From Magnetococcales bacterium (lineage in GTDB: Bacteria > Pseudomonadota > Magnetococcia > Magnetococcales > JADGAQ01): DNA of 35,101 bases. The stretch is from NCBI GenBank assembly GCA_015231925.1, contig JADGAQ010000020.1:1-35101 (forward strand), in the 5' to 3' direction. Shown here piece by piece: positions 13,402 to 22,047 of the stretch. Position 1 is the stretch's first letter. Every line of letters begins with the position of its first letter. The position numbers and the translations under genes are program-made. The notes under the pieces are model-generated. The model did no database searches. It worked only from the letters and a program-made list of their open reading frames with translations, and was not told where the DNA came from.

Positions 13402-13568
13402 CGTTCAATATTTAATCTTTTAAATATCAAAAAAAGAAAATGTTCTAATCTGTTGATTTTGATTATTTTTTATTTAATTTTTTTAAAAAATAAAAAATAA
13501 TTAATTCAAAGTCAAAGGACAGAACATTTCTTTTTTTTGATTTTTAAAGGATAACATATTGAAAGTCA
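13399..13568. repeat. long AT-rich palindrome between convergent genes
   Basis: Two inverted arms of about 60 bases (13399-13462 and 13505-13568) pair almost completely. Each begins TGAC.TTCAATAT, passes through TCAAAAAAA(A)GAAA, and ends near TTGA.TTTGA. The roughly 40-base centre is itself near-palindromic AT sequence, so the whole 170 bases could form one long hairpin. The outermost TGA on each strand is the stop codon of the gene on that strand, the HAD phosphatase on the plus and the D-amino-acid transaminase on the minus. A terminator role for both genes is likely. Confidence 0.85.
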
Positions 13569-14411
13569 AAGGATTGATCTGGTTTCATCCCGAAATTTCT
13601 CTTGCATGAATCGCGTGACAGGGCCGGGCAGACCGTTGCCCACTGTTTGGCCATCCAGACGCACCACCGGGGTGACATCGGTGGTGGTGCCTGTCACGAA
13701 GAGTTCCTCAACTTCCAAAGCCTCTGCCATCGTGAAAGCCTCCTCCCGAACCGGGAAGCCCTCCCGGCGACAAATCTGCAGAACCACCTGACGGTTGACG
13801 CCCGACAGCACGAGGTGATTGGCCGGATGGGTGAACAGCACCCCGTCCCGCACCCCGAAACAGTTGGTGTGGCTGCCCTCGGTGATGCGCCCGTCGCGCA
13901 CGAAGAGGGCCTCCCTGGCTCCCCGGTCGATGGCTTCCTGATGTGCCAGGATTGAGGCGGTGAGGGCGGTGGTTTTGATATCGCAGCGCAGCCAGCGGAT
14001 GTCGGCAACGCTGACGGCGGCGATGCCCTGTTGCATCTCCTCGACCTTGGAGGAGAAGGGTTTGACGAAGGCAAAGCAGGTGAGGGCGGTTTCGGGGTTG
14101 GGAAAGGCGTGGGCTCTCGGGGCGACGCCGCGACTGATCTGCAGATAGAAGAGGGCGTCCTGGCCGTCGAGGTTGTTCAACCCCAGCAAGGTATCGGCGA
14201 TCTCGGCAAGGGGGGGCAGGGTGGTCTGGTTGAGACGCAGAAATTGGGCCCCCCGGTCGAGTCGGGCCAGATGTTCTTCCATGCGGAACCAGACGCCCTG
14301 GTAAGCCCGCACGGCCTCGTAAAGCCCATCGGCAAAGGAAAAGCCTCTGTCAAGCGGCGAAAGCGCCAGTTGGGAAACCTCCCCGAAGTGTCCGTTGAGA
14401 TAGGCCAGCAC
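13566..14411 (-). CDS. dat: D-amino-acid transaminase (class IV aminotransferase)
   Basis: This 281-residue PLP enzyme interconverts D-amino acids and 2-oxo acids (D-Ala with 2-oxoglutarate in well-studied members). AYLNGHFGE starts the fold, DRGFSFADGLYEAVRAYQG follows, and RCDIKTTALTASILAHQEA carries the PLP lysine, Lys146, at the position known from Bacillus enzymes (about 145). EGSHTNCFGVRDGVLFTHP and LSGVNRQVVLQI are also typical. GTG 14411 is chosen as start because GGAG lies eight bases upstream and the length then matches the family; the longer open frame adds an atypical hydrophobic N-terminus. Branched-chain or 4-amino-4-deoxychorismate relatives are less likely. It diverges from the asparaginase operon. 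Confidence 0.88.
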   Translation of the reverse strand: MLAYLNGHFGEVSQLALSPLDRGFSFADGLYEAVRAYQGVWFRMEEHLARLDRGAQFLRLNQTTLPPLAEIADTLLGLNNLDGQDALFYLQISRGVAPRAHAFPNPETALTCFAFVKPFSSKVEEMQQGIAAVSVADIRWLRCDIKTTALTASILAHQEAIDRGAREALFVRDGRITEGSHTNCFGVRDGVLFTHPANHLVLSGVNRQVVLQICRREGFPVREEAFTMAEALEVEELFVTGTTTDVTPVVRLDGQTVGNGLPGPVTRFMQEKFRDETRSIL

Positions 14412-14448
14412 GTTATTTTCTCCGAAAGGGAGTTGACAAGCCAATAGA

Positions 14449-14476
14449 AGTATGACAAACAAGCAATCCGGGTCAA
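14449..14476 (-). promoter_or_regulatory. probable promoter of the D-amino-acid transaminase gene
   Basis: On the minus strand TTGACC (14471-14476) is followed after 16 bases by CATACT (14449-14454). The expected start of transcription, about 30 bases before the GTG codon, leaves room for the GGAG ribosome-binding site. Confidence 0.4.
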
Positions 14477-14772
14477 GTTGTAATTATGTTATAAAAATTT
14501 AACCGAAAAAATTTGACACAAATCTGTTTCACGAACGATTGGCGTAAAGGGTGCGGTATCAATATTAGATGTCTGGCATGGTTTAATTTTTGAATGTCAA
14601 TGCTATAGGATATACAAAAAAACCAAATCACCTCTTAAGTTATAAATATATTTCATCGGCAGATTATTTTTGAGGAATTTAAGCTAAAAACTTGCGCCCA
14701 AATTAACGTCCAGGTATGTTTTTCGAAAAGCAGGGAAAAAGTCACCTACGAATAACTTAATTTAGTATGTGT

Positions 14773-14801
14773 TTGACGAATGCCGAAATACAGGCTAACA
14801 T
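14773..14801 (+). promoter_or_regulatory. probable promoter of the ATPase/asparaginase operon
   Basis: TTGACG (14773-14778) and TAACAT (14796-14801) are 17 bases apart. Transcription would begin near 14808, just before the GAGG ribosome-binding site and ATG 14825. If so, an upstream in-frame ATG at 14780 would not be on the transcript, which supports the shorter start. Confidence 0.5.
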
Positions 14802-14824
14802 CCTTGCAAAATGAGGGTGACGAC

Positions 14825-16147
14825 ATGCTGCTGAGCGATGCTGTAAAAATCATAGTTGAAAACATCAAAGAACTAAACCAGAAGATCCTGGCGGAAGCGG
14901 CTTCAGTTAACCAGGGGCAGCTTTCACGCTGGTTTAATCATGGTACTGACTTTTCGCAAAAAAGCAGAGGAAGAGTTATTTCAGCTCTAGTTAGATTGAT
15001 TGACGATCTGGCTGAAAAAAATAAAACGGATTATAGGGCTAGATTTTCCCGTGAATTGGCTCTCATCGAAGCTTCCGAGGACTACAAAGCCCTGGTGTTG
15101 GCTCCAATGCAGCTCGATCCGGAAAGCCCCATCCCGGCGGGAAACCCGGTTTGCATGCATTTGCCGTGCTGGGAAACTCTGAAGCGGGAGTTGGATCTTC
15201 CTCCCTTGCGTGCAGCGATTGTTGGTGGGGTCAAAACCGGGAAGAGTACCCTCCTCGAAAGGGCCGAACAGTATCTGGAGCGCAAGGGGCATCATGTGTT
15301 TCGGATTGATGCCAAGGTTTTCAATAGCCAGACTGAAAGCAACTTTTTCGTCTGGCTGGACCAGGTATGTCGCGTTCAGCTTCCGAATACGGCGCGTTTT
15401 TCCGTTCGCCTGAAGGCTTCCGACAAGCTGGCCGAGTGGCTTGAGAAGAACATACTCAAGAATTTAAAAGAAGATCAATCATGTACTTTTTTGATTGATC
15501 ATATTAATAAACTTAATCAGGTAGTTCTTAAAGATCTTTCGTTCGGTCTTCATGAAATTCTTGGCAGTCAAGGTAATTTAGGAGCGGATGTTGGCCTTCT
15601 CGCTGCCTATGATGAAACGGGGGGTTGGATTTATGATTTGTTAGGACCGGCAAGCTTCTTTTATCGCCAGTTGAGAACGATATCGGTTTTGCCAGTTCCC
15701 GAATCGGAGGTTGAAAAAATCATAAATATAATATGCAACAATAAAGAAGACCAAGCAACACTGGTTGATGGTGCTTGGGAGTATTTTCAAGGCCACCCCT
15801 ACTTGACTTTCCGATATACCCGCCTGCTTGCCGATGGAATGCTTCCTGATGAGGCGTTGGCCCTGCTGGCCCCTGTAGCGCTGGAGCAGTTGGTGAAGCC
15901 CCTGCTGGCGGCCTTGGGGTATAAGCCTGATCAAGCAAATGGGAGCGGTGAGTTTGATAATCCTGCAAAGAAGTTGATCGATGCACTGGTGGGGCCGAAA
16001 ACCCGTCTTGGCGCGAATCGGGCCATGGTCTGTCAATGGCTGGTGGATAGCCGGTTGTGCCGCTGGAATGGGCAAAACCGGGATTTTTTGATCCCGTCTT
16101 CGGAGTGGCTTTCTGATCGGTTGCGGGAAGGTCTGGCCAAAGCATAA
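14825..16147 (+). CDS. P-loop ATPase with N-terminal HTH region
   Basis: This 440-residue protein opens the asparaginase operon. Residues 1-65 look like a lambda-repressor-type helix-turn-helix region (AEAASVNQGQLSRWFN). After a linker comes a P-loop NTPase: Walker A GGVKTGKST at residues 134-142, Walker B TFLIDH with Asp225, and later EYFQGHPYLTFRYTRLL, the sort of helical C-terminus seen in AAA_35/STAND-like ATPases. A final winged-helix-like part (about 370-440) contains VCQWLVDSRLCRW. The same ATPase type is fused to asparaginase in the next gene, three bases downstream. Base composition is more AT-rich at its 5' end than in its neighbours. Exact function is unknown; a sensing or regulatory role is inferred. 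Confidence 0.75.
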   Translation: MLLSDAVKIIVENIKELNQKILAEAASVNQGQLSRWFNHGTDFSQKSRGRVISALVRLIDDLAEKNKTDYRARFSRELALIEASEDYKALVLAPMQLDPESPIPAGNPVCMHLPCWETLKRELDLPPLRAAIVGGVKTGKSTLLERAEQYLERKGHHVFRIDAKVFNSQTESNFFVWLDQVCRVQLPNTARFSVRLKASDKLAEWLEKNILKNLKEDQSCTFLIDHINKLNQVVLKDLSFGLHEILGSQGNLGADVGLLAAYDETGGWIYDLLGPASFFYRQLRTISVLPVPESEVEKIINIICNNKEDQATLVDGAWEYFQGHPYLTFRYTRLLADGMLPDEALALLAPVALEQLVKPLLAALGYKPDQANGSGEFDNPAKKLIDALVGPKTRLGANRAMVCQWLVDSRLCRWNGQNRDFLIPSSEWLSDRLREGLAKA

Positions 16148-16150
16148 GCC

Positions 16151-18442
16151 ATGTCGGACAACTCCGCCAAACCCAAGCCCTTTTTTGCCGGCAGCGCCAT
16201 CGACGACCGGCGTTACGTTTATGTGGAACGTGCGGCGGATGAGCGACTCTTTCGCATGCTTTCCGAGGGTTTGCACTGCAATCTGCACGCCGGTCGGCAA
16301 AGCGGCAAGACGAGTTTGATGCGCAAAACGCGCCGCCGTCTAGAGACTCAAGGACATTTCTGCTTGGAAGTCAACCTAAGCCTCTTTTTCACCAGGGGAA
16401 GTTTTTCCGAAAGCCTGCTGCTGGTCGTGGAAAAGATTCTTGAGGATGGCAAAAAGGCCCTTCCGGAGTTATCCCGGCGCTTGCCGGCGCGAAAAATGGA
16501 GAGCCCAGCCTCCTACTGGATTCGCCTGTTGAAACGGTTGGGCAGTCTGCTCAGCGGTGGCAAACGCCTCTATCTACTCCTGGACGAAGTGGACAGCATG
16601 ACGGTCCACAAACAGGGGGAATTGGCCGAACTCTTTTTGCGCATGCGGGAGTTCTTCCAGAGCGACACTCCGGCCTCGCGGGGAGTGGTGCTGCTGTTGG
16701 TTTCGGTACTGACCCCCATGGAAATGTTCATGGACTACAACACGGGAGGAGCCACGGCCGCCTACTGGCAGAACGTTCCCCTGGAGCTTCTTCCCAATAC
16801 CCCCGAGGTACGTTTGCAAATGGCGCAACAGGCCTTTCCGGGGTCTCCCTTTCAGGAAGTGGACGACCTCCTCTTTCGACTGCTGAACTTGACCGGTGGG
16901 CAGCCCTTCCTCACGGCTCAACTGGGAATGGAGTTGCAGAGGGAGGAGGATCCGAGCGGTTACTGGCCGCTTCTGGAAAAAGAGGTCTTGGTGGAACCCA
17001 GACGATTGGTGGGCAATCACCTGCAAGGCATGGACAAGCAGTTGACCGACATGGGTTCACGGATCTTTTCCCTGACGCAACTTTATGTCCGCATTCACAA
17101 GGGGGAGGAGACGGTTTTCGCCCGCGACGGGTTGTCGGCGGCGGGATCATTGGAAAACATCGGACTGGTGCGCCGGAATGCCGATGGCAGCTTGCGGGTA
17201 GCCAATCCCCTCTATCAGGCCCATTTGACGCCGGAATGGGCCGAGGCTGTGGTGAAACAGTATGAACAGAGGGCTTCGGCCAAAGCGGCCCCCCTTCACG
17301 CCCCCAGCCTGCCTCGTCGTATTGCTCTGATCCATGTGGGTGGAACCATGGGCATGGTCACCGATGGCGGGCGTTCCAGCTTCGAAGGAGCCCTCAACCT
17401 GATCGATTCCTTCATTCAGGAGGAGTTGAATCGTCTGGCCCTAGTGGAATCCATCGCTAAATGGTCCCTGGACGGTATCAACGTCACCCCCAAAGAATGG
17501 GTGGAAATTGCCAAATGGATTGATGAGCATCGCAAGGAGTTCGACGGTTTCGTCATCGCCCACGGTACCGATACCCTGGCCTACTCGGCTTCCGCCGTGG
17601 CCTTCATGCTGGGCCGTGGCCTGGATCGCCCGGTGGTCTTTACCGGGGCCCAGACCACCATCGACCAGTTGCATGGCGATACCCGGCAGAACTTCTATCG
17701 TTCGGTTTACGCCGCTGCCAACGACAAGGCCATTCCGGAGGTGCAGATCTGTTTCGGGGATCGGGTCATGCGGGCGGTTCGGGCCGAAAAACGCGACGAC
17801 CGCACCTACGACGGCTTCGACTCCCCCGGTTGGCCCCACCTGGCCCGCATTACGGAAAATTATCTGGTCAACGAATTCGCCATGGACCGAACCAAGGGAC
17901 CGAACACCCCCTATCTCTTTCGACCTTACATTGCCGACCGCCTGCTTCTGATCACCCTGGCTCCGGGAGTGCGCCCCGATCCTTATCGCGAGATTCTGCA
18001 TCTTTCTCATGACCGTGGAGAACCCCTGGACGGCATCCTGATCACTACGCCGGGATTGGGTAACATTCCCAACCGGGATCCCTTCAACTTCCGCAATCTG
18101 ATCGGGGATGCGGTGAGTCTGGGAACCCCGGTGCTTATTGCCAGCCAGGTGCCCATCAATCCCTATACCCAGAACCAGTATGAGATGGCCAGCGTTCCGG
18201 CCCAGTACGGTGCCATTCCGGCAGGCAACCTGACCCTGGCAGCGGCCTTCACCAAGTTTGCCTGGGTGGTGGGGTGCGTCAATCGGGAGTGTCGTCCCCC
18301 GGACAGGATGGAAGAAATCAAACGGCGCATGCGCACCATCTTTGTCGGCGAAGAGGGCGAATACGGCGAACAGTTGGATCGGGCCAATCGCCAATCCTCA
18401 CTCTTTCCAGTCATTCTTGCAGGAGATACCCATGTCCATTGA
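16151..18442 (+). CDS. AAA_35/STAND-like ATPase fused to type I L-asparaginase
   Basis: This 763-residue protein is a fusion. Residues 1-375 form a P-loop ATPase with Walker A AGRQSGKTS (47-55), Walker B LYLLLDEVDS (Asp145-Glu146), GGQPFLTAQLG typical of AAA_35-type domains, and a winged-helix-like end. Residues 390-735 form a complete L-asparaginase of the cytoplasmic type I kind: HVGGTMG with nucleophile Thr399, HGTDT with Thr473-Asp474, and Lys547 in RAEKRDDRTYDGFDSP. All core catalytic residues are present, but the substrate-binding Ser expected in the D-S motif is Gly442. I know of no characterised protein with this architecture. The stop overlaps the next gene by 11 bases. The activity may be ATP- or ligand-gated. 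Confidence 0.85.
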   Translation: MSDNSAKPKPFFAGSAIDDRRYVYVERAADERLFRMLSEGLHCNLHAGRQSGKTSLMRKTRRRLETQGHFCLEVNLSLFFTRGSFSESLLLVVEKILEDGKKALPELSRRLPARKMESPASYWIRLLKRLGSLLSGGKRLYLLLDEVDSMTVHKQGELAELFLRMREFFQSDTPASRGVVLLLVSVLTPMEMFMDYNTGGATAAYWQNVPLELLPNTPEVRLQMAQQAFPGSPFQEVDDLLFRLLNLTGGQPFLTAQLGMELQREEDPSGYWPLLEKEVLVEPRRLVGNHLQGMDKQLTDMGSRIFSLTQLYVRIHKGEETVFARDGLSAAGSLENIGLVRRNADGSLRVANPLYQAHLTPEWAEAVVKQYEQRASAKAAPLHAPSLPRRIALIHVGGTMGMVTDGGRSSFEGALNLIDSFIQEELNRLALVESIAKWSLDGINVTPKEWVEIAKWIDEHRKEFDGFVIAHGTDTLAYSASAVAFMLGRGLDRPVVFTGAQTTIDQLHGDTRQNFYRSVYAAANDKAIPEVQICFGDRVMRAVRAEKRDDRTYDGFDSPGWPHLARITENYLVNEFAMDRTKGPNTPYLFRPYIADRLLLITLAPGVRPDPYREILHLSHDRGEPLDGILITTPGLGNIPNRDPFNFRNLIGDAVSLGTPVLIASQVPINPYTQNQYEMASVPAQYGAIPAGNLTLAAAFTKFAWVVGCVNRECRPPDRMEEIKRRMRTIFVGEEGEYGEQLDRANRQSSLFPVILAGDTHVH

Positions 18443-20210
18443 ACCAGTGGCCTTGACGGATTTGGAAAAAGACGACCGCATCGACGAAGTCATGCGCTTT
18501 TTTTCCCAAACCCTGAAGCAGGAGAGCGCCTTCGCCAAGTTGAAGAGTGAGCAACAAGAGGCCGTCAGTGCCATTCTGCAATCCCTGACCAAGATGCGTT
18601 TCGAAAATATCGCCTCTTTCCAGCAGGTAGCCTCCAGTCAGCTCAAAACGATCGCTCCTGAACTGGATCGCTACGTTCCTATTGCCATTGATAACGCCAG
18701 AGGAATGTTGAGCGAAAAGCAGGGGGTGCTGGTTATCTACACCGGGGGGACTATCGGGAGCGCCCCCAAGGATCCGGATGATCCCGAAAGTCCCCAGGTG
18801 GTCAAGCCCTGGAAAGATCTGAAAAATGCCGGTCCCATGCTGGGAGCCTTGGGCTACCCCGTGGACGCGGTGGCCTTCGTCGATCCCCTGGATTCCTGTA
18901 ATGTCGGTCCTCCGCACTGGCTCGCCATTCTGCGCATCATTCAGGCCAATTACAGCAAATACTCCGGTTTCGTGGTGTTGCATGGCACCGACTCCATGGT
19001 CTATACCGCCTCGGCCCTCTCCTTCATGATGCTGGATTTGGGTAAGCCCGTGGTGATCACCGGATCCCAAATTGCGGGCATCGTCAATCCACGCAACGAT
19101 GCCCACCAGAACATGATCACTGCCATCATGTTGGCCAATCCTGAAGCCAACAATCTGGAAATGATTCCGGAAGTAATCATCTCGTTTGGGAATATTATTA
19201 TCCGGGGGTGTCGGTCAAAAAAGATGAATGTTATTGAGTATCAAGGTTTCGACTCCCCGAACTACCCTCGCCTTGGCAAGGCGGGGGACCACATCATGAT
19301 TGAGCGCAAACACCTGCGCAAAGCCCCAGAATTAGATGTGGAGTTTATGGAAGATATGGATACCAACGTTATTATCGTGGAAGTCTTTCCCGGGATGCAG
19401 CACTCTCCAGTATTGGCAAATATTCTCAAAGATTCAAATTTGCGCGGGGTGGTTTTGAAAGCTTATGGTGCAGGAAATATTCCCACAGATCCACCTTTTC
19501 TCAATCTTTTTCGTGACTTTATTGACCGCGGAGGTGTGGTGGTCTGCACCACCAGTTGCCCGGCGGGGGAGGTGGTCATGGGACTCTATGAAACCAGCCA
19601 GGTACTGGTGGATAGGGGCATCATCGGTGGCTTCGACATTACGCCAGAGGCAGCTCTGTGCAAGCTCATGGTCCTACTGGGAAAATACGGCAACGATATT
19701 AACTCCGTAAAGAAGTTTATGCAGCAATCCATGGCTGGGGAACAGCGTTTAAGCCTTGAAACCTCAGATTTGCCAGGCAAAAAGACGTTGACCCAGGGCG
19801 CAAGTCCGATTGAGATTTCAGGAAATCTCAACAGTGTTGCTGATCCGGAGCGTATTGACCGGGTCATGCTGCGCTTCAAAAATGCGCGACTGTTTAGCGG
19901 AAGTACCGACCCTGACCACCGGGTTACCATTAAACTCTTCAATGATGGTGAAACCAGGGAGCATGGGGAGAATTTTCTGGGGGCCTTTCCTCGCAGGCAG
20001 GTTCCAGCAGGGGCCTTGGTTCAGGACGAAAGCACAGGAGAAAGCTTGGCAATCGATCTGACCCTAAAGAAACACCTCTTTTTAGCCAAGCAGAGTTCCG
20101 CCAGGGATAGGGCCAAACAGAAGGTGCGCATCGGTATTGCCCTGGAGGGGGATGCGGGCGCCTCCTTTGCCTGGGAAGATGCCGAACTCAACATCTACAC
20201 CATGGAATAG
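18432..20210 (+). CDS. type I L-asparaginase with extra N- and C-terminal domains
   Basis: This 592-residue protein is much longer than ordinary asparaginases (about 330). Residues 1-95 are helical with no recognised motif. Residues 96-440 are a type I asparaginase: YTGGTIGS with Thr107, VLHGTDSMVYTASALSFM with Thr186-Asp187, Lys264 in RGCRSKKMN, plus the binding motif LDSCNV with its Ser intact. The rest (about 440-592) is predicted from sequence to be beta-rich and is not recognised. The start is fixed by AGGAG six bases before ATG 18432, inside the preceding gene. It should hydrolyse Asn to Asp and ammonia; Gln or another amide cannot be excluded. Part of the gene (about 19150-20050) is visibly AT-richer than the rest. 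Confidence 0.87.
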   Translation: MSIEPVALTDLEKDDRIDEVMRFFSQTLKQESAFAKLKSEQQEAVSAILQSLTKMRFENIASFQQVASSQLKTIAPELDRYVPIAIDNARGMLSEKQGVLVIYTGGTIGSAPKDPDDPESPQVVKPWKDLKNAGPMLGALGYPVDAVAFVDPLDSCNVGPPHWLAILRIIQANYSKYSGFVVLHGTDSMVYTASALSFMMLDLGKPVVITGSQIAGIVNPRNDAHQNMITAIMLANPEANNLEMIPEVIISFGNIIIRGCRSKKMNVIEYQGFDSPNYPRLGKAGDHIMIERKHLRKAPELDVEFMEDMDTNVIIVEVFPGMQHSPVLANILKDSNLRGVVLKAYGAGNIPTDPPFLNLFRDFIDRGGVVVCTTSCPAGEVVMGLYETSQVLVDRGIIGGFDITPEAALCKLMVLLGKYGNDINSVKKFMQQSMAGEQRLSLETSDLPGKKTLTQGASPIEISGNLNSVADPERIDRVMLRFKNARLFSGSTDPDHRVTIKLFNDGETREHGENFLGAFPRRQVPAGALVQDESTGESLAIDLTLKKHLFLAKQSSARDRAKQKVRIGIALEGDAGASFAWEDAELNIYTME

Positions 20211-20213
20211 CGC

Positions 20214-21572
20214 GTGGGCGCCCTTTCGCTTCAGGATGTGGAGGAGATCCCGCAGCGGGTGCAGCGCACGCTGACCTTTCTTCGGGAAAACCGGGTCTGG
20301 CATGTGGTCAGCCGCAACTCTCCCGCCACCAGTTGTCAGGATGCCGCCAATCGCCGCTTCCGTTTGGGAAAGGTAGGTATCCCGCTTTACGATGAGATGA
20401 AGTCCCTGCATTTGGAGGGCTGCTTTCCGGGAGGGGAGCGCCACTTTGTGCTGCTCCACTGTCGCGCCCATGCCCGTTTCGATCTGCAGGCGGCAGAGAG
20501 GATGCTGGGGGTGGAACGCCCCCTGCAACGCCTCACCGCCGAGGAACTGTCGGGGCGCTTCTCGGCGCGTTACGGAACGGTCAACCCCTTCTCCGAGGCC
20601 GCCGGGACCATTCAACTCTTTGACGAGGATCTCCTCTCCCGGTACTCCCCGCCCCATTCGGTGATGACCAACGCCGGTGATCTCACCTGGGCCGTGGAGT
20701 TCCGTCCGGTGGAGGTCATTGCCGCCCTGAAAAACCATGCCTTGCGAGTGGAGGTGGCCCGCATCACCACCTCCTCGGCGCGTAGCCACTCCTTGCCGGT
20801 ATTCGGCATCATTACCGGCAACGGCCCGGAAAGCGGCATGTCTTTGTGGAAACTGACCAACCGTTATGTTCATGCCCAATTGACGGGTGAAGGGCGCATG
20901 CACGGGGATCTGACCTATCCTCGGGTACATATCCACTCCATTCCCGAAATGGGCCTTTCCATGGAGTTGATCGAGCGGGAGGAGGAGGTTTGGGCGGTGA
21001 TTCGCCAAACGGTGGAAAGATTTATCGCCGAAGGGGTGACCCATATCGCCATCGCCTGCAATACCACGCAATACTTTGCCCATAAGATCCGCGAACTCTG
21101 CGAACCCCAAGGCGTCACCTTCGTCGCCCTGGCGGAGGTCATGGGCGAATACCTGCGCAGCAATAACCTGACCGAGGACGTTACCATCCTGGGTATTCCG
21201 GTGGTGGCAGAACTCGGTCCGCGCAGCGCCTTTTCCCCCCTGAAGGAGCTGGGTCTCCAGCCGGTGCGAGAAGTGGCCAAGGCCCATCTGGAAGAACTGG
21301 GCTACATGGTCAAACGGTTGGAAGCCGATTTGCAAGACACCAAAGCCCTCAACAAGCTCATCCACATCGTGCGGGCAGGGGTTCCCACCCGGCGCGTCAT
21401 GATGGCCCTTACCGAAATATCCGTGCTATTGGAGCGTTTCCCCCGCCTGCGGCAGCGCATCGCCGACAAAGAGATCATCGATACCCTGGATACCTACGCC
21501 AAGGCGCTGGCCCGCATCTACCTGAACGCCCTCCCGACCGAGACCTTCGACGACCTCTCCCAGTGGGATTGA
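20214..21572 (+). CDS. YbaK-like tRNA-editing domain fused to Asp/Glu racemase-like domain
   Basis: This 452-residue fusion has an N-terminal half (about 20-150) with the layout of the YbaK/ProX aminoacyl-tRNA deacylase fold: SRNSPATSCQDAANRRF, a conserved-looking Lys63 in DEMKSLHLEG, RFDLQAAERMLGV, and RYGTVNPF. The C-terminal half (about 200-430) resembles the aspartate/glutamate racemase family: GIITGNGPESGMSLWKLTN, IACNTTQYF with Cys282, and LGIPVVAELG. The second catalytic Cys expected before TE is Leu399 in ALTEISVLL, so ordinary two-base racemisation is doubtful. The start is GTG, three bases after the asparaginase stop. It closes the operon and suggests action on Asp/Asn or Asp-tRNA. 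Confidence 0.75.
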   Translation: MGALSLQDVEEIPQRVQRTLTFLRENRVWHVVSRNSPATSCQDAANRRFRLGKVGIPLYDEMKSLHLEGCFPGGERHFVLLHCRAHARFDLQAAERMLGVERPLQRLTAEELSGRFSARYGTVNPFSEAAGTIQLFDEDLLSRYSPPHSVMTNAGDLTWAVEFRPVEVIAALKNHALRVEVARITTSSARSHSLPVFGIITGNGPESGMSLWKLTNRYVHAQLTGEGRMHGDLTYPRVHIHSIPEMGLSMELIEREEEVWAVIRQTVERFIAEGVTHIAIACNTTQYFAHKIRELCEPQGVTFVALAEVMGEYLRSNNLTEDVTILGIPVVAELGPRSAFSPLKELGLQPVREVAKAHLEELGYMVKRLEADLQDTKALNKLIHIVRAGVPTRRVMMALTEISVLLERFPRLRQRIADKEIIDTLDTYAKALARIYLNALPTETFDDLSQWD

Positions 21573-21760: not shown

Positions 21761-21829
21761 TTGGGTAACGCTTTTCAAAATGGTAAAAAGGAACCATCGA
21801 GTTCACCTCAAGGCGGCGGAGGAAGGGCG

Positions 21830-21979
21830 ATGGGCAACGGATGGCATGCTGGTTTATTGAAGGCTTTGAAATTTTGGCGGTTATTTGTTATGGCGAAAGA
21901 CGTTATCGAGGAAGTATGGCCGTTTGTTGAACGGGTGTTGACTGTCTTTAAGGATTTATTGGCTCTGTTGCAATGGTAA
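21830..21979 (+). CDS. small hypothetical protein, 49 residues
   Basis: A short frame begins at ATG 21830 behind a very strong ribosome-binding site, GGAGGAAGG. The peptide (MGNGWHAGLLKALKFW, then a region with EEVWPFVERVL) alternates hydrophobic, basic and acidic residues as an amphipathic helix would, and ends LLALLQW. No family is recognised. It is followed seven bases later by a perfect 14-bp hairpin, which fits a self-contained transcript. It might be a membrane-active peptide, a small regulator, or an accessory of the preceding operon. It could also be chance, but the combination of RBS, promoter-like boxes and terminator argues for a gene. Confidence 0.5.
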   Translation: MGNGWHAGLLKALKFWRLFVMAKDVIEEVWPFVERVLTVFKDLLALLQW

Positions 21980-21986
21980 CCTCTTT

Positions 21987-22018
21987 GGGGTTCCGGTCCC
22001 TCCTGGGACCGGAACCCC
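21987..22018. terminator. perfect 14-bp hairpin terminator
   Basis: GGGGTTCCGGTCCC and its exact complement GGGACCGGAACCCC flank a TCCT loop. It lies between the small ORF (plus) and the stop of the glycosyltransferase gene (minus). The stem is strong, but only a weak T-rich tail (GAGAATTTCTT) follows, so it may terminate in both directions. Confidence 0.65.
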
Positions 22019-22047
22019 TGAGAATTTCTTCCACATCGGGGTACCGC

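Follow-up and report, generated by a model that had tools for sequence, protein, structure and literature searches.

The window, the whole 35,101-nt stretch of DNA analysed here, holds a compact block of four co-directional genes, A to D, with a fifth gene, E, diverging from A (Table 1). A and B are separated by 3 bases, B and C overlap by 11 bases, and C and D are again 3 bases apart. A purine-rich ribosome-binding site lies ahead of the starts of both A and C. These coordinates bear out the original prediction, which had described a tight four-gene block with 3-base gaps or overlaps. The domain make-up that it gave was likewise recovered by Pfam and NCBIfam comparison and, for D, from a predicted structure: an HTH-ATPase (A), an ATPase-asparaginase fusion (B), a larger asparaginase (C) and a YbaK-like/racemase-like fusion (D).

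Table 1. Genes, domains and non-coding elements at the A-B-C-D locus (positions in the window)
Feature	Position	Strand	Remarks
A: HTH (about aa 15-60) + AAA_35-like P-loop ATPase	14825..16147	+	ATG, GAGG upstream
B: AAA_35 ATPase + type I-like asparaginase fusion, distinct clade	16151..18442	+	
B AAA_35 ATPase domain (aa 22-359)	16214..17227	+	Walker A GRQSGKTS, Walker B DE intact
B asparaginase domain (about aa 390-740)	17318..18370	+	T399, T473, D474, K547 invariant
C: asparaginase, N-terminal helical extension + C-terminal beta domain	18432..20210	+	ATG, AGGAG upstream
C asparaginase domain	18726..19751	+	T107, T186, D187, K264 invariant
C C-terminal beta domain, unclassified	19854..20207	+	marginal PPO1_KFDV similarity in homologues
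D: predicted YbaK/ProX tRNA-editing fold + Asp/Glu racemase fold	20214..21572	+	GTG start
D YbaK/ProX domain (aa 14-180)	20253..20753	+	Lys63 invariant, 9/9
D Asp/Glu racemase-fold domain (aa 196-440)	20799..21533	+	Cys282 in 7/9; Leu399 at second Cys, 9/9
E: class IV aminotransferase, D-amino-acid transaminase-like	13566..14462	-	Pfam Aminotran_4 3e-44
AT-rich (35% GC) divergent E-A intergenic region; presumed promoter/operator	14463..14824	.	
Inverted repeat, 19-bp stem + 4-base loop, possible terminator	21982..22023	.	

Profile matches support the assignment of both ATPases to the AAA_35 type. B gives the stronger signal: its AAA_35 match of 25.1 bits falls just below the cut-off of 27 and spans nearly the whole model, and its Walker A and Walker B residues are intact. 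A carries a Walker A-like motif, GGVKTGKST, and matched weakly in Pfam (AAA_22, E=1e-3; AAA_35, E=0.05); a search of solved structures with A returned nothing useful. One homologue of A (L006:3522-5021) exceeds the AAA_35 cut-off (31.4 versus 27), and homologues of A also have weak HTH_3 and HTH_31 matches. Profile-to-profile alignment (hhalign, 98%, E=3e-13) shows homology between the ATPases of A and B. A putatively regulatory P-loop NTPase is fused to an enzyme (B) or encoded beside one (A), the arrangement of NTP-dependent, STAND-type systems. Pfam, NCBIfam and PADLOC searches of A-D recovered none of the known effector domains (nuclease, TIR, protease, pore-former), and Pfam gave no matches to MoxR, vWA or EADs.

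The operon encodes two asparaginases, as proposed, and catalytic residues are kept in both. B (3e-45) and C (3e-45) match Asparaginase, and both match Asparaginase_C (1e-25 for C); the catalytic Thr, Thr-Asp and Lys are invariant across the five B and seven C-type sequences aligned. Both fall under the curated asnASE_I cut-off of 260.5 bits (163.8 for B, 238.6 for C) and both score on the GatD models of NCBIfam. Judged by score, B and C are a distinct asparaginase subfamily, and the tree agrees for B. B-type asparaginases (100/99) and the six cassette C asparaginases (88/97) form separate clades, which shows the pair to be old and co-inherited. The closest solved structures to C are AnsA-type L-asparaginases I (2ocd, 2p2d; 34-36% identity), all of whose catalytic residues it keeps. 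Unlike AnsA, C has extra N- and C-terminal domains, B belongs to a separate deep clade with an ATPase fusion, and B and C always occur as a pair in the cassette. The N-terminal helical extension of C (aa 1-95) is confined to Magnetococcales. Its C-terminal domain is left unclassified, since the PPO1_KFDV matches are marginal (E=0.01-0.03) and this part of the predicted model is of low confidence. A search of viral contigs for C-type proteins found none. Elsewhere, on the Ilyobacter plasmid pILYOP01, ordinary metabolic genes surround an asparaginase whose C-terminal extension is C-type-like (L081:8992-10401; absent from the PLSDB gene table).

D is a predicted fusion of a YbaK/ProX fold and an Asp/Glu racemase fold. 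Its sequence matches all lie below cut-off (tRNA_edit, 4e-5; Asp_Glu_race, 1e-4; CuyB racemase, 7e-13), and a solved-structure search with D gave nothing useful. An AlphaFold2 model built from nine homologues (pLDDT 77) and compared by Foldseek confirmed the fusion at the level of predicted fold. The first half resembles ProX/YbaK proteins (TM by target 0.87 for the Cys-tRNA(Pro) deacylase 1dbx and 0.82 for 2z0k; also 2dxa), and the second resembles the Asp/Glu racemase 3s7z (TM 0.80). Lys63, invariant in all nine homologues, matches by motif, not by superposition, Lys45, which is nearly universal in the INS superfamily (PMC10164551). D shares its fold and this Lys with YbaK/ProXp trans-editing proteins, but is fused to a racemase fold and only about 10-22% identical to them.

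The racemase half is probably not an ordinary racemase. Its first catalytic cysteine, Cys282, is kept in seven of nine homologues and replaced by Asp in two; the second is Leu399 in all nine, so that two homologues have neither. We rejected a plain two-base racemase reading on this ground, and two-base racemisation by D is unlikely. One-sided chemistry is still conceivable, since unbalanced pairs exist: EcL-DER uses Thr83/Cys197 (PMC12661438), the reverse of D in that D loses the second cysteine. The original prediction had all three enzyme types meeting at asparagine, aspartate and aminoacyl-tRNA; the missing second cysteine weakens the argument from aspartate.

E is an apparent fifth member of the cassette in Magnetococcales, one that the original prediction overlooked. 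It adjoins A divergently in all three Magnetococcales cassettes, and the genes beyond it vary among these loci. At E<=1e-40, E occurs in exactly the three of 48 genomes of the order that hold the cassette, a coincidence of 6e-5 if independent, to be taken as a guide only because the genomes are related. All three copies score best in NCBIfam against D-amino-acid transaminases, slightly under the curated cut-offs (for the window copy, TIGR01121 D_amino_aminoT, 270.3 against 277.45 bits). E does not lie beside the Acidobacteriota or Bacteroidota cassettes. This linked D-amino-acid transaminase homologue lends weight to the D-Asp alternative that had been raised alongside asparagine depletion.

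The four-gene neighbourhood is conserved across phyla, as the original prediction needed if the genes belong together. Searching with D led to another Magnetococcales genome, a Solibacteraceae, a Blastocatellia and a Bacteroidota MAG, each with A-B-C-D, and a sixth copy lies in the Magnetococcales genome G020. In all, six loci in three phyla (three Magnetococcales, two Acidobacteriota and one Bacteroidota) share gene order and orientation; the same order in five genomes besides this one argues that the arrangement is not chance. Identity to the window in five-genome alignments is 27-60% for B, 41-70% for C and 35-62% for D, with A the most divergent member (16-35%). The trees of B, C and D are compatible, each splitting Magnetococcales from Solibacteraceae, Blastocatellia and Bacteroidota, which shows that the three genes spread as one unit; resolution is weak at some inner forks, and the Bacteroidota B is a long branch. 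Given the shared order in three phyla, the compatible trees and the differing flanks, we take the cassette to be a mobile unit that moves as one.

The cassette is patchily distributed. It is complete in three of 48 Magnetococcales genomes, from three families. In overlapping whole-genome samples, full-length D was found in one of 347 Acidobacteriota and one of 345 Bacteroidota genomes and, in a 398-genome sample of Pseudomonadota, nowhere outside Magnetococcales; one contig scan used a single sequence. The other matches to the D profile in that phylum sample are confined to the racemase half (about model positions 200-450), and we discounted them as free racemases. Plasmid, phage and viral-contig collections held no full-length D, the plasmids yielding one free racemase. 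Patchy presence with differing flanks is the pattern of horizontal transfer common to anti-phage systems.

Genomic location supports defence only in part. Of the six loci, defence context is clear at one (L006/L074), suggestive at two (L005, L007) and absent at three. The clear case is the Blastocatellia cassette, in a defence island (by PADLOC and Pfam) with type III restriction and methyltransferase genes and DrmD-, TmtA- and PD-T4-6-like genes; a DUF6036 nucleotidyltransferase/HTH pair adjoins its A. The Solibacteraceae cassette neighbours a Schlafen AlbA_2 gene and the Bacteroidota cassette an Eco57I-type methylase. The three Magnetococcales loci, the window included, have no clear defence neighbours. 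A defence-island setting thus stands for the Blastocatellia locus, rests on one neighbour each at two loci and does not hold for the other three. Amino-acid enzymes are also found nearby. At 2 kb from the Blastocatellia cassette lies another gene for an Asp/Glu-racemase-like protein, in which both cysteine motifs (CNT, GCTE) are present (L006:12398-13360), and a gene for a diaminopimelate-decarboxylase-like PLP enzyme converges on the Bacteroidota D (L007:10850-12166).

Cassette-type proteins also occur in other operons. Three further Magnetococcales genomes hold a second D operon (L069:84-6255, L070:6338-11714, L071:8486-14738), ordered as an EamA transporter, a cyclase + FGE-sulfatase protein, an asparaginase, D and a TIR-like gene. 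The last is intact in L069 (TIR_2, 4e-6), truncated in L070 and split in L071. One genus holds both operon types, the cassette in G019 and the second operon in G028. On contig 11 of G020 (L073:7367-14126), a GatA homologue overlaps a stand-alone B-type asparaginase, with genes for TIR and SLOG (LD_cluster3) proteins 2-4 kb farther on. A contig from IMG/VR that bears a terminase-like gene (L066:3032-10590; its viral share is uncertain) carries a GatA homologue, small ORFs and then a run of a MinD/ParA-like ATPase, a B-type asparaginase and a C-like asparaginase. Both GatA homologues exceed the curated GatA cut-off.

The component families are known, and their assembly appears undescribed. The claim that no described system has this set agrees with a PADLOC scan of A-D, which matched no model, and with our search of openly accessible literature, where no asparaginase is described in such a system. 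The nearest relatives are NTP-dependent conflict systems, namely STAND, MoxR-vWA ternary and related systems (PMC7159879, PMC8195603), two papers in which the words 'asparaginase', 'racemase' and 'YbaK' are absent. As in those systems, the P-loop ATPases are co-operonic with or fused to effector-like enzymes and the cassette is patchy. The second D operon has FGE-sulfatase (FGS), cyclase and TIR partners, and FGS and TIR domains are parts of such systems (PMC7159879, PMC8195603). In contrast, the cassette has no identified MoxR, vWA, EAD or death-like domain, and the B ATPase lies N-terminal to its enzyme. We group the cassette with NTPase-gated systems for the way in which it would operate; compared with them feature by feature, it gives a mixed picture.

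We favour, at a probability of roughly 45%, an ATPase-gated conflict or stress system that acts on asparagine and perhaps on aminoacyl-tRNA. A would be the sensor and regulator, pairing with the related ATPase of B, a role that suits it because a sensor is expected to diverge fastest. A trigger would drive ATP-dependent assembly and so activate an asparaginase complex of B and C. This complex would release aspartate and ammonia from asparagine, or act on a similar amide. Loss of asparagine could then arrest growth or starve a parasite of Asn-tRNA, and phage protection would be a possible outcome. The YbaK/ProX half of D may deacylate tRNA or a related ester, and its racemase-fold half may bind an Asp- or Asn-like ligand as a sensor or specificity module, as opposed to performing two-base racemisation. 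In Magnetococcales, the D-amino-acid transaminase homologue E would join the set.

Several lines of evidence make this conflict or stress reading the best one: a pair of ATPases, of which B's is joined to an asparaginase; the fast-diverging A; the shared gene order in three phyla with compatible B, C and D trees; patchiness and rarity; the defence island; and the sister operon with TIR and FGS. The two loci with a Schlafen AlbA_2 or Eco57I-type methylase gene and the B-type asparaginase near TIR and SLOG genes in G020 back it further. It is weakened by the ordinary neighbours at three of six loci, by the lack of a PADLOC match and by the absence of full-length D from the mobile and viral collections searched. 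Asparagine depletion as a defence mechanism was not met in the literature searched, which also counts against it. So do the amino-acid enzymes common nearby (the transaminase at three loci, the L006 racemase and the L007 diaminopimelate-decarboxylase-like enzyme), which suit metabolism.

That metabolic alternative, a regulated module for asparagine and D-amino-acid turnover, is the main rival and, on balance, unlikely though a serious contender. Here the asparaginases would supply aspartate and ammonia, E and the racemase half of D would handle D-Asp or D-Glu, the YbaK half would clear mischarged tRNA, and A would be a MalT-like ATPase regulator. E fits well, since it was detected only in the three of 48 genomes that have the cassette and each time next to it (6e-5 under independence). 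The L006 racemase with both cysteine motifs, the L007 enzyme, the EamA transporter of the second D operon, the AnsA-like character of C and the comparable extension of the Ilyobacter asparaginase in a plain metabolic context fit as well. Against these stand the missing E at the cassettes of Acidobacteriota and Bacteroidota, the loss of the second cysteine in all nine D homologues, the fusion of an AAA_35 ATPase to an enzyme, which is not normal in catabolic operons, and the patchy distribution, TIR-like partner and single defence island.

An improbable alternative is aminoacyl-tRNA quality control or interference, in which the asparaginases, as relatives of GatD, would deamidate Asn, either free or attached to tRNA, and D would remove the wrong amino acid, so that the target is Asn-tRNA or Asp-tRNA(Asn) rather than bulk asparagine. 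The ProX/YbaK fold with its invariant lysine, the GatD scores of both asparaginases and the GatA homologues that adjoin non-cassette B-type asparaginases (L073 in G020; the viral contig L066) speak for it, but the cassette has neither a GatB-like or other tRNA-binding subunit nor a GatA neighbour, and C is most like free L-asparaginase I. Very improbable, finally, is resistance to, or production of, a microcin C-like aminoacyl-nucleotide or amino-acid-like inhibitor by amide hydrolases, a deacylase, a variant-operon transporter and a switchable regulator: the enzyme types suit amide or ester cleavage of Asp-like compounds and the second D operon has its EamA transporter, the rest being analogy, but no biosynthetic genes adjoin the cassette, and the two AAA_35 ATPases and TIR-like partner are left unexplained.

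The metabolite-depleting defences known so far target nucleotides or NAD, with NADase systems such as Thoeris as an example. If the cassette couples ATPase switches to asparagine hydrolysis and a tRNA-editing fold, as the conflict or stress reading would have it, the metabolite-depletion idea extends to amino acids and aminoacyl-tRNA. Like Thoeris, it would use a triggered enzyme that removes an essential metabolite; its target would instead be asparagine, and it has no TIR or SIR2. The bolder proposal of a new defence class, in which an ATPase switch leads paired asparaginases and D to stop infection by cutting the supply of Asn or Asn-tRNA, some bacteria adding a D-amino-acid branch, is doubtful. 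Even if metabolic, the cassette is an undescribed compact unit, with one asparaginase fused to an ATPase, a second one as its partner, a YbaK-racemase fusion whose racemase site is broken and a linked D-amino-acid transaminase homologue.

The non-coding sequence around the cassette offers modest detail. We rejected a shared operator in the E-A region, where repeats and a common 8-mer (AATTTGAC) barely exceed shuffled sequence. Sigma-70-like promoters number nine against 4.2 expected, mostly within genes, and are unconvincing. The inverted repeat separates D from the next gene, which converges on D, and was not picked up by a consensus terminator scan. Among the small ORFs downstream of D we saw none that is conserved. 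One of them, a 72-codon ORF 3' of D (window 21761-21979) for which no counterpart was noticed, is hydrophobic in its second half. Composition is uneven among the cassette genes, with 49% GC in A and 61% in D against a window mean of 60%.
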